A stretch of DNA of 43,613 bases, taken from contig DAIDHN010000032.1 of assembly GCA_027459665.1 (NCBI GenBank), forward strand, positions 1 to 43,613. Reading direction: 5' to 3'. Under the pieces are notes generated by a model. It saw only the letters and a list, made by a program, of their open reading frames with translations. It was not told the origin of the DNA and did no database searches. The position numbers and the translations under genes were made by a program. Shown piece after piece: positions 14,290 to 18,463 of the stretch. Origin of the DNA: Chthonomonadaceae bacterium. Lineage in GTDB: Bacteria > Armatimonadota > Chthonomonadetes > Chthonomonadales > Chthonomonadaceae. Position 1 is the stretch's first letter, and each line of letters opens with the position of its first letter.

Positions 14290-15417
14290 TCACCGTTTCT
14301 GGGCGCTGTTCAGCGACACGCCCACTGCGGTTTCCACTGCGTTTACAAAGGTATTTTTGTCACGGATAATAGCCTGTGCAGGCAGGGAGGGAGATACTGT
14401 GGTAAGCCCCTCCATCTTTTTCACGGCGGTGCCAATAGCCATAAACTCTATCATACCGCCTCCCAAATTGTACACATAGGTTTTAATCCCAACCACATCA
14501 TCTGCCCCTATCGCGCTGGCCTCGCCCGCAATGCGTGCAATAGCATTCTCTCTCGCCTCATAAATCAGGGTGGTAAGTTCGCTTATTTCTCCGCGCACCA
14601 GGCTTTTGACCAGTGCCGAGATACCGCCCACTACTCCCAGCGAATAAACCGAAACCCCAAGCAAAAGGCGCTGCGGCATGTATCCCAGGTGAATGAGATT
14701 CCACATTTCCTCATTGGTCAGGTCGCTGGTAACAGGCATGCTGGCACTGGTAGGAGGCAGCATGGGGTGATGAGACGCAGTGCCAATCATCACCATCTCC
14801 TGCATGCCCTGAAACGGTAGAATAGAGGTATTGATGCCCACCACGGCATTGCCGCCCGCCTGTTGTGCCTCATTGGCAATACGCTGAAGCGCAAGGTGCC
14901 GCGTTTTATTAAAAATCTCTGAAAATTCTTTCACCTCGCCCCGTCCAAGCCCGCGCATGGTACCCATCACGCCGCCGCCAACACCAATAGAATAGGCAAC
15001 GTTGCCAAATACAAAGTGAAGCGGATGAAAACCGGCATCTATCTGGCAGTAAAGTTCCTGGCCATCTGCCGAAGAAGAGAAGAAAGCACCTTCCTCGCTG
15101 TGCAGGCAGGAACCTATAGACAAAAACTCTATGTTGCCTGCCTGTTGCACCAAATCGCTGCTCACCCCGGTTATGCCGCATGCACCACGCTTCTGCGCCT
15201 CCTGAATCATCCGCTGAAAACCCTGCACCCGGCCTTCATGAATCAGGCTGGTCACCTGTGTTACCTCACCGCCCATCAGCGTCTTCAAACCGCTGCCCAG
15301 GCTGCCCAGCACACCCATCGAGTAGACGCTGTTTCCAATCACCAGATCGCCTGGCTTCATATTTTTAAGCTGCAGGCAGTATATTTCATTGCCCGAAAGA
15401 CCAGTCATAACAGACAT
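14290..15417 (-). CDS. Protein with three tandem YbjQ/UPF0145 domains
   Basis: A 375-residue protein containing three copies of the YbjQ (DUF74, UPF0145) domain, at about 20-115, 130-235 and 255-350. Each repeat has the same order: a G-N/V-S-V-Y-S-M/L-GV strand, then L-x-x-G-E-V/I-x-E/Q-x-T, a long helix (AREN..., KTRHLALQRI, EGRVQGFQRM), and an A/G-x-x-V/I-x-G-V/I strand ending in M/L-x-IG-T/S. Single-domain YbjQ proteins are ~105 residues and are reported as pentamers, so a three-in-one chain is unusual. I chose ATG 15417, with AGGAGG 7 bases upstream. It lies 70 bases after the pseudoprotease and is likely the last gene of that operon. Function unknown. Confidence 0.8.
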   Translation of the reverse strand: MSVMTGLSGNEIYCLQLKNMKPGDLVIGNSVYSMGVLGSLGSGLKTLMGGEVTQVTSLIHEGRVQGFQRMIQEAQKRGACGITGVSSDLVQQAGNIEFLSIGSCLHSEEGAFFSSSADGQELYCQIDAGFHPLHFVFGNVAYSIGVGGGVMGTMRGLGRGEVKEFSEIFNKTRHLALQRIANEAQQAGGNAVVGINTSILPFQGMQEMVMIGTASHHPMLPPTSASMPVTSDLTNEEMWNLIHLGYMPQRLLLGVSVYSLGVVGGISALVKSLVRGEISELTTLIYEARENAIARIAGEASAIGADDVVGIKTYVYNLGGGMIEFMAIGTAVKKMEGLTTVSPSLPAQAIIRDKNTFVNAVETAVGVSLNSAQKR

Positions 15418-15487
15418 ATTACTGCCTCCTCTTGTCTGGCGCACCCTGCCCATGCCCTGGTGAGCCAGACAGATATTCTGATAAAGT

Positions 15488-16360
15488 TTACTTGCCGGTT
15501 TTTTTCACTGGCACAGCCGCGGCTTCTCTCTTTGCCAGCAGCGCCTTTGCCCGCGTTTCAGCCTGCAGCACCACCGCATTTACCGCAGAAGAAGGCACCA
15601 GAAAGAACTGCAGCGGTGAACCGCCCCCGCCCAGTATGCTGCCCAGCATGCCAAACGGATTGCTGCCGCTTTCGGTAGGGGTAACGGTAGGTTTGAGAAG
15701 CGTCATTACACCCAGCACCTGCCCTGCTGCATTGTACACAGGCAGGCCCAGAGGCATTGCGGTTTCGGTAAGAAGAAACGCCGGGCGGGGCAGAACAATG
15801 CTGCCGCCAATGCGCGCTGTATGCAGATAAGGCGCATAGTTGTACCCTTTTTGCAAGCGGGTAATGCAGTATACCTCTTCTCCCAAACTCGCCTGCGCGC
15901 TTGAGTTCATATCCTCGGCAGTCAGAGCGCGCCCATCCAGGCCCTCAATCTGCACAAAACTCAGCCCCAGAATGCTGTCGGTAGCGGCCAGAAAACCGTT
16001 GTACTCCTTACTCTCGTCGCCAATCGTGATCTTGAAACCGGTTGGCACTGTTTTCATTTCAAACCCGCTGCCGGCAAGGCTGCCGAGAAGCTGCTGAAAC
16101 ACGTCGGTAGAGTAGGCGGATGTAGAGAGCATCACCAGACCAGATGGGCTTACCACTACGCCCTCTGCGTAGGTGTTGCCTTCGGTGTTTTGTGTATTGC
16201 TCCCTTCGCCCATCATGGTGCGGGTGATGATTTTTACTGTTACGATTTTTGGTGAATCGTTCTGCAGCAGTTTTTGTATGGGTAATGCCCCCTGTGCCAG
16301 AGCAGAAGACACAATGCAGATTGCACAGAATGCTGCACCAATAGTAAGCAAATGCTTCAT
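15488..16360 (-). CDS. Secreted catalytically dead trypsin-fold protein (HtrA-related pseudoprotease)
   Basis: A ~290-residue protein with a clear signal peptide (HLLTIGAAFCAICIVSSALAQ) and the strand pattern of a DegP-type S1C protease. GVVVSPSGLVMLSTSA matches the segment that normally reads GVIISPDGYVITNYHV, but the His position is Ser. DSILGLSFVQI matches DPMTDISVLKL with Gly at the Asp position. AMPLGLPVYNAAGQVLGV matches GNSGGPLVNMQGQVVGI with Leu at the Ser position. All three triad residues are therefore lost while the fold around them is kept. No PDZ domain follows. The ATG at 16360 begins the signal peptide; a GTG at 16384 directly after the upstream stop is the alternative. It follows an intact HtrA gene, so it may be a regulator or adaptor of it. 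Confidence 0.75.
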   Translation of the reverse strand: MKHLLTIGAAFCAICIVSSALAQGALPIQKLLQNDSPKIVTVKIITRTMMGEGSNTQNTEGNTYAEGVVVSPSGLVMLSTSAYSTDVFQQLLGSLAGSGFEMKTVPTGFKITIGDESKEYNGFLAATDSILGLSFVQIEGLDGRALTAEDMNSSAQASLGEEVYCITRLQKGYNYAPYLHTARIGGSIVLPRPAFLLTETAMPLGLPVYNAAGQVLGVMTLLKPTVTPTESGSNPFGMLGSILGGGGSPLQFFLVPSSAVNAVVLQAETRAKALLAKREAAAVPVKKTGK

Positions 16361-16384
16361 AAATTCAGTATTCTCCTTCTTCAC

Positions 16385-18463
16385 TTAGTGTGAGGGCTGT
16401 TTCCACTCCGGCTCAATAAACACAAAATCGGTAAGCGGCCCGCGGCGTACAAACAGGGTGATTACATGCGGATGCTTTGCACGCAGCGTACGCATTGCCT
16501 TCTTATACGAAAGCGTATCTGTTACATGAATGCCATTCACCGAAAGGATAAGGTCTTTCAGATTCAAGCCGCCAACATTGGCCCATCCTCCTTCGGTAAT
16601 ATCAGAAACAATTACCCCTTTCTGCGAGGCGCTCCAGTGCTGCTCTATCCGGTCAAACAGGGTTACATTGCGCACTGTACACTCCAGCAAATGGTCACGG
16701 TATGTAACTGCCTGCTGCACAGAAGCCGGTTCAGCCTGCAGAGTAACAGGCACTTGCAATGCCTTCCCGTTGCGCAAAATGGTGAACGCGGCTTTACTGT
16801 CTACGCTCAGATTCTCTATCTCCTGCTTCAGTACATCTGCATCCTGCAGGCGGCTTGCCTGCAGCGGCGAACCATTCAGTTCGGTAATTACATCTCCAGT
16901 TTTTAAGCCGGCCGCAGCTGCCTGGGTATAGGGCAGCACCTGGGTAATCAGAAAACCCTGCTTTTTTTGCAGGTGCAGCGTGGCAGCTATTTCTGGTATA
17001 AGCACCTGGGTTTTAACGCCCAGCCATGCATGCGGCAGGTCTGTGTTGTCATCGCTGTTTTGCTGCTGCTTCATGTTCAGCACAGTAAGCAGTTTCTCTC
17101 CCTTGTGCAGGCAGGTGAGTACCAGGGTATCTTTCTTGCCCAGTTCCTTCAGCATTTTTCTCAAATCGGCAGGGCTGCCTACCTCTTTTCCGTCTACAGC
17201 CCGTATCACATCATTGTCTGATAGTTTCGGCTGCGCGCCATCAACAGGCATACCGGGAAGTATGCCGCGAATCATTGCCCCACTGGTATCGGGAAGATGA
17301 TGCCGCAGGGCCATCATGGGAGTGATGCGCCGTACAGAAATGCCAAGTGCGGGCACCTCGCTCTCATGTCCCATCGCCGGCTGCATGGGGCTTACCACTA
17401 CAGGCAGATTCAGCACACTGCCTTCACGGGCAACACGCAAATGCGCTGTAGTACCTGGCTTAAGCGAAGCCACCATCTGATACAGCAGCGGTATCTGCTC
17501 AAAGTAAAGAGTGTTTGTCGGCTTTCCATTTATATCCAAAAGCACATCGCCTGCTTTCAAGCCTGCTTTCGCCGCACTTGAACCGGGCAGCACAGAAGAA
17601 ACCAGGGTGCCGGTAGTTCGCCCCATTTTTTGCACCGGCATAGGCGAAAAGCCAAGTGAACCCCGCACTACCCTGCCATAACGCAGCACAGAGTGGTATA
17701 CCTGAAGCACCAGGTTGGAAGGAATGGCAAAACCCACACCGTTTCCACCCAGTTCGTTGATGCCCACTACCTGCCCCTGCATGTTCACCAGCGGCCCGCC
17801 CGAATTTCCGGGCAGTATCAGCGCATCATGCTGTATCCAGCGGGTGAGCAGCCCGGTAACCTGCCCGTCATCCAGCGTCTGGTCTTCTATTCGGGTGCCT
17901 GTAAAATTTGTAAACACGCGTGATTTGTTTGAAACAACTCCCAGTGTAAGCGATGATGAAAGCATAAGCGGGTTGCCCATGGCCATCACAAACTGCCCTG
18001 CATGCAACAGGTTCGAATTGCCCAAAACGGCATAGGGCACGCGAATGACATGGCCGTTTTTTTGGGGCAGATTCAGCTTCAGCACCGATATGTCGGTCAT
18101 GGGGTCGTCGTATACATCACGGGCATCAAATGACTGGTGGTCTGCAAGAGTACAGGTGATATGGGTGGTGTGGCCGGCAACGTGGTAATTGGTAATCACA
18201 TATCCGTCGGGGCTGATAATCACCCCGCTTCCCCCAGCCAGGTCCCGGTGTACCCTTCCGCCGTCGTAATAGCGAAATACTACAAAAATATTCACCAGGG
18301 CAGGGTACACCCTGCTTTTGGCAGCGTTGATGCTGCTTTCAAGAGAATTCACATCACCAACTGGTATATTTCGAGAAAGCGCCGCGGCTGCAGTGGGCAT
18401 AGCACAGGCGATTCCAAGTGAAAGCAGGCAGGCAGCCCTTGTCAGGCTGTTTGGTAGAGACAT
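16385..18463 (-). CDS. HtrA/DegP-type serine protease with four PDZ-like domains
   Basis: A 692-residue secreted protease: signal peptide (~1-28), trypsin-like domain with an intact triad, H94 in TNYHVAG, D124 in DPMTDISVL and S221 in LPGNSGGPL. After it come four PDZ-like repeats at about 266-355, 370-460, 477-575 and 600-685, each with a GxLI/V..V.P.. AA.AGL..GDVI/L core (GLKAGDVLLDING, LSDNDVIRAVDG, GLKTGDVITELNG, GLNLKDLILSVNG). DegP, DegQ and DegS have one or two. HtrA proteases degrade or refold damaged envelope proteins, with PDZ domains controlling substrate access. GGGAGG precedes the ATG. It heads an operon with the pseudoprotease (gap too short for a promoter) and the triple-YbjQ gene. 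Confidence 0.92.
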   Translation of the reverse strand: MSLPNSLTRAACLLSLGIACAMPTAAAALSRNIPVGDVNSLESSINAAKSRVYPALVNIFVVFRYYDGGRVHRDLAGGSGVIISPDGYVITNYHVAGHTTHITCTLADHQSFDARDVYDDPMTDISVLKLNLPQKNGHVIRVPYAVLGNSNLLHAGQFVMAMGNPLMLSSSLTLGVVSNKSRVFTNFTGTRIEDQTLDDGQVTGLLTRWIQHDALILPGNSGGPLVNMQGQVVGINELGGNGVGFAIPSNLVLQVYHSVLRYGRVVRGSLGFSPMPVQKMGRTTGTLVSSVLPGSSAAKAGLKAGDVLLDINGKPTNTLYFEQIPLLYQMVASLKPGTTAHLRVAREGSVLNLPVVVSPMQPAMGHESEVPALGISVRRITPMMALRHHLPDTSGAMIRGILPGMPVDGAQPKLSDNDVIRAVDGKEVGSPADLRKMLKELGKKDTLVLTCLHKGEKLLTVLNMKQQQNSDDNTDLPHAWLGVKTQVLIPEIAATLHLQKKQGFLITQVLPYTQAAAAGLKTGDVITELNGSPLQASRLQDADVLKQEIENLSVDSKAAFTILRNGKALQVPVTLQAEPASVQQAVTYRDHLLECTVRNVTLFDRIEQHWSASQKGVIVSDITEGGWANVGGLNLKDLILSVNGIHVTDTLSYKKAMRTLRAKHPHVITLFVRRGPLTDFVFIEPEWKQPSH

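Follow-up and report, generated by a model that had tools for sequence, protein, structure and literature searches.

A four-PDZ HtrA protease and its dead HtrA-like neighbour: a candidate two-subunit envelope protease system in Armatimonadota and Planctomycetota

HtrA proteases are usually viewed as homo-oligomers whose own PDZ domains regulate them. A locus of a Chthonomonadaceae bacterium (contig DAIDHN010000032.1; the window is the whole 43,613-nucleotide stretch analysed, from an assembly of 3.67 Mb, G000, closest among named genomes to Chthonomonadaceae and other Armatimonadota) raises the question of whether such a protease may have a separate, non-catalytic partner. There an HtrA gene is followed by a gene for a secreted HtrA relative, here termed PP, and by one for a triple-YbjQ protein, which the initial annotation read together as a possible undescribed envelope quality-control module. 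Its description of the layout was borne out: the three genes share the minus strand and are separated by 24 and 70 bases.

16385..18463, minus strand: HtrA serine protease (P0001), 692 aa, predicted to be exported, with four PDZ domains; stop codon included
17666..18346, minus strand: S1C protease domain of HtrA, residues 40-266
18182-18184, 18092-18094 and 17801-17803, minus strand: HtrA triad codons for His94, Asp124 and Ser221, respectively (profile alignment)
17060..17665, minus strand: PDZ1-PDZ2 of HtrA, residues 267-468 (Pfam, segment HMMs, AlphaFold2 model)
16394..17050, minus strand: PDZ3-PDZ4 of HtrA, residues 472-690, whose counterpart in the class B arrangement (below) sits on PP (segment HMMs)
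16361..16384, minus strand: HtrA-PP gap, 24 bases, with Shine-Dalgarno-like AAGGAGA (sequence)
15488..16360, minus strand: PP, a pseudo-HtrA (P0002), 290 aa, predicted S1C fold without the triad; stop codon included
15830..15859, minus strand: PP hallmark motif RLxKGYDYAP, residues 168-177, here RLQKGYNYAP, replacing the 'GNP' loop of HtrA
15491..15550, minus strand: Ala/Pro/Lys-rich tail of PP
15418..15487, minus strand: PP-YbjQ gap, 70 bases, with Shine-Dalgarno-like AGGAGG (sequence)
14290..15417, minus strand: triple YbjQ_1 protein (P0003), 375 aa, placed outside the conserved module (Pfam, synteny)

A Shine-Dalgarno-like sequence stands ahead of each of the three starts. In a scan against shuffles neither gap contained a terminator-like site, and the number of promoter-like sites did not exceed that in shuffled sequence. 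We infer co-transcription of the HtrA, PP and YbjQ genes.

The first product has a signal peptide-like N-terminus, a Trypsin_2 domain (6.1e-26) and four PDZ stretches detected by Pfam; its AlphaFold2 model (mean pLDDT 81) shows an S1C barrel and four PDZ folds, with a low-confidence linker (residues 466-477) joining PDZ2 to PDZ3. The trypsin-like domain, the His-Asp-Ser triad, the GNSGG motif and the PDZ domains that follow place it in the HtrA/DegP family (MEROPS S1C). Profile alignment finds the triad intact (His94/Asp124/Ser221) and His, Asp and Ser kept in all paired HtrAs wherever the site is covered, in agreement with the earlier reading of an active HtrA with four PDZ-like domains. With 374.4 bits it stays below the curated cut-off of the Do family model TIGR02037 (416.2 bits), and the window HtrA would represent a related subfamily not filed under that model. 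Four-PDZ HtrAs form a distinct orthologue group, since full-length members score at least 332 bits in Armatimonadota, against at most 177 for other HtrAs of the relatives.

PP, read from the ATG at 16360, likewise begins with a signal peptide-like segment, ending ALA-QG; besides this, none of its top-scoring windows is strongly hydrophobic. It escapes most sequence comparisons: Pfam Trypsin_2 matches it below the cut-off (E = 0.0032, 18.6 bits versus 27.6), no NCBIfam model matches it, and a contig scan with the PP sequence alone gave no match. A PDB sequence search was also empty, and fold comparison was therefore used. The AlphaFold2 model of PP (pLDDT 87) is a well-ordered fold that matches HtrA S1C domains in the PDB at Z 18-19 across 172-215 residues, and hhalign of the PP profile with the paired HtrAs gives a probability of 98.5%. 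By this modelling, PP is predicted to have the S1C fold, an HtrA-like double beta-barrel.

Profile alignment puts the triad sites of PP at Ser81 (for His), Gly132 (for Asp) and Leu204 (for Ser), so PP lacks the residues of an active S1C protease, and the claim that the secreted relative has lost the whole triad is right for the window protein. Across the family the loss is less uniform: among 47 homologues the His site holds His in 0/47 and the Ser site Ser in 2/47, while Asp is kept in 25/47. R168 is invariant in 47 homologues, and D128 is invariant as well. The tail is often Ala/Pro/Lys-rich and ends in Lys in 27 of 48 distinct homologues. HtrA PDZ ligands typically have a hydrophobic end, whereas most PP C-termini have Lys there, so nothing indicates that the PP tail docks in a PDZ groove. 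Some genomes carry PP genes in tandem: four lie downstream of HtrA in G324 (L195, G324:C78:14377-17754), and two each in G158, G178, G186 and L117.

We surveyed 205 Armatimonadota and 393 Planctomycetota genomes, mostly metagenome-assembled, with other phyla covered by one pattern scan. The PP pattern was built from the closer alignment, A2, as alignment A1 had no patternable stretch; in named genomes it matched in Armatimonadota and Planctomycetota. PP occurs in 29 of the 61 relatives of the window genome. Among the Armatimonadota the four-PDZ HtrA was found in 55 genomes, every one of which also has PP; PP was found in 59. The four PP-only genomes have PP at a contig end (G003, G154), a truncated HtrA beside PP (G169), or an adjoining HtrA split in two frames (G170). 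In Planctomycetota, with a PP threshold of at least 100 bits, the identical 39 of 393 genomes carry both a full-length four-PDZ HtrA and PP. Fisher tests of co-occurrence, which ignore the relatedness of the genomes, give 1e-45 and 1e-54. Presence and absence alternate inside at least nine Armatimonadota families (f1, f3, f5, f7, f8, f14, f15, f19 and f28), and within these HtrA and PP vary together.

Gene order is also conserved. In 41 distinct loci HtrA lies directly upstream of PP on the same strand, which upholds the HtrA-PP part of the gene order that the initial annotation had proposed to look for in related genomes. PP loci with upstream sequence but no HtrA there are L043/L099, L054 and L106, and L112 has a mere HtrA fragment ahead of PP. 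L054 comes from G049, whose four-PDZ HtrA is on another contig; G189 likewise keeps HtrA and PP on different contigs. Both genes are retained unlinked in G171 (one contig, 862 kb and 3,086 kb, about 2.2 Mb apart) and in G562 (469 kb and 187 kb, about 280 kb apart). To judge from gene content, the four-PDZ HtrA of both phyla almost always appears with a secreted, dead HtrA-like partner.

Pairwise distances of PP and HtrA across 21 genomes correlate at 0.93, in a test of the co-evolution that the initial annotation suggested looking for, and at 0.89 in a partial correlation allowing for NadB (controls chosen by phmmer); PP and NadB distances correlate at 0.61. Operon linkage explains part of this correlated divergence, and 0.89 is therefore not independent proof of contact. 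PP evolves faster than HtrA (mean distance 2.13 versus 1.56).

Examination of the weaker Planctomycetota PP matches revealed a second arrangement, class B (L189-L194, L234-L250 and L253), in which an active-type two-PDZ HtrA is followed by a PP fused to two PDZ domains. HMMs were built from the PDZ segments of four-PDZ HtrAs, and the comparison is one of HMM scores, not of a tree. The PP-borne PDZs of class B score 107-179 bits with PDZ3-4 and 47-100 with PDZ1-2, preferring PDZ3-4 in 18/18 cases, whereas those of the adjacent HtrAs score 144-169 bits with PDZ1-2 and 64-111 with PDZ3-4, preferring PDZ1-2 in 14/14. As controls, two ordinary HtrAs from unlinked genes show no PDZ3-4 preference, and a class B profile search independently matches the C-terminal half of four-PDZ HtrAs. 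These preferences place PDZ3-4 on the protease in class A, where its junction is the low-confidence linker noted above, and on the pseudoprotease in class B. Armatimonadota and some Planctomycetota have the pair on the protease and other Planctomycetota loci have it on PP; G234, G235 and G257 contain both classes. The class B PP of L189 appears to keep the triad His, with the Ser and Asp sites lost, so that decay differs between members.

That the same PDZ pair can be borne by either polypeptide is strong inferential evidence that HtrA and PP belong to one complex. The relocation suggests that the two act as one two-part machine, although contact does not follow from a gene being split or fused. 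In the simplest history, a two-PDZ HtrA would have been tandem-duplicated, the second copy would have lost catalysis, and its PDZ pair would have moved to the first, an order of events we infer.

Co-occurrence, adjacency, retention when unlinked, correlated divergence and the PDZ3-4 relocation together strongly support the earlier proposal that the protease and its dead paralogue are a functional pair. We think it probable that HtrA and PP together form a two-subunit protease system of the envelope, with PP as a non-catalytic regulator or scaffold partner. Both would be exported to the envelope, where HtrA would be the cleaving subunit; PP, with the HtrA barrel kept and the triad gone, would assemble with it, either in a mixed oligomer or through docking, and would set how active it is, its access to substrates or its state of assembly. 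PDZ3-4 would functionally belong to the partnership, whichever polypeptide bears them. The physical complex, the direction of regulation and the quality-control role are presumed parts of this scheme, and the sequences are compatible with PP as a regulator, a substrate trap or a scaffold. Within it, the lineage-dependent placement of the PDZ pair would make PP an integral non-catalytic subunit, and we lean, a little more cautiously, towards a two-subunit HtrA machine, not described before, in Armatimonadota and Planctomycetota.

PP might instead be devoted to HtrA as its inhibitor, decoy or substrate, produced along with it, consumed or displaced under stress and never a stable subunit. Its second place in the gene order, its single domain in class A, its conservation combined with faster evolution than HtrA, and the tandem copies in G324, G158, G178 and G186 would all suit such a role, but class B PP bears its own PDZ pair with homology to the protease's, which would be odd on a disposable substrate, and the modelled fold of PP is well ordered; we regard this explanation as unlikely. 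Somewhat less probable again is that PP does a separate non-catalytic job, such as MamO-like metal binding or the binding of an acidic surface by its Lys-rich tail, and is merely co-transcribed. With MamO there is an earlier example of an S1C domain put to another use (PMC4794232), and the Lys-ended tails would fit a binding function. Against it stand the retention of both genes when unlinked, the PDZ relocation, and the lack of a conserved His column in PP homologues (highest His fraction 11%), which rules out a MamO-like metal site.

An envelope module of all three genes, in which YbjQ has a functional part, is very improbable. Pfam confirms the annotated identity of the third gene, with three YbjQ_1 (PF01906) stretches (2.9e-42, 143.9 bits versus a gathering score of 23). 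Short gaps and a common strand do recur in G000, G001, G011 and G004, but only in these four genomes does the triple-YbjQ orthologue adjoin PP; it is located elsewhere in G003, G005, G012, G013 and G015, occurs in G006 where PP is absent, and is missing as a neighbour from the majority of PP loci. The protein has no signal peptide-like start and appears to be cytoplasmic. Synteny thus rejects YbjQ as a module member: it is, on this comparative evidence, a bystander and recent neighbour outside the conserved unit, perhaps co-transcribed with HtrA-PP. The initial annotation's undescribed module stands in its protease-pseudoprotease part, a conserved pair, and falls in its YbjQ link and three-gene order. 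Two more YbjQ-repeat genes adjoin each other at another site in the window genome (G000:C45:16008-17572), and the same type of cluster is found in many relatives. It is scarcely credible, finally, that PP remains a hydrolase whose active site has moved. The invariant D128 and R168 and the Asp at the triad site in 25/47 would be expected of one, but in class A the His site is never His and the Ser site almost never Ser, and the homologues hold no conserved Ser/Cys/His set.

We return to the reading of HtrA and PP as two subunits and compare it with known systems. In structure the PP model comes closest to the S1C-NTF2 domain of RsgI9 from Clostridium thermocellum (7sjy, Z 18.8, with matches within 1 Z counted as tied); this domain is part of an anti-sigma factor and, unlike PP, is not paired with an HtrA. 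CspBA and CspC of Clostridioides difficile have a subtilisin fold and serve in spore germination. They have no PDZ domains. They are reported to be pseudoproteases with a regulatory part in a protease cascade (PMC6636752, PMC12880746), much as proposed for PP. The DegP/DegQ (Do) HtrAs (e.g. 2zle, 4a8a) share the order of protease domain and PDZ domains with the window HtrA, which differs from them in having two more PDZ domains and a dead partner that is almost obligate.

The nearest known case is MamE/MamO of magnetotactic Alphaproteobacteria, likewise an active PDZ-bearing HtrA with an S1C-fold pseudoprotease (PMC4794232), and Foldseek places the MamO structure 5hm9 with the top hits to the PP model. 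MamO is set apart by its TauE domain, its di-histidine metal site and its function in magnetosomes (PMC4794232), whereas PP has neither a TauE domain nor a conserved di-His or His-Asp site and is therefore not a MamO; its partner, a four-PDZ HtrA, also differs from that of MamO. Pseudoproteases are described as having arisen independently in three magnetotactic taxa (PMC4794232). A literature search, poor on subscription papers, returned no description of the HtrA-PP pair. If our reading is right, the pair would be a second, non-magnetosome instance of pseudoprotease control of an HtrA, and its two natural designs, which differ in whether the protease or the partner bears PDZ3-4, make the complex directly testable with wild-type proteins of either kind.
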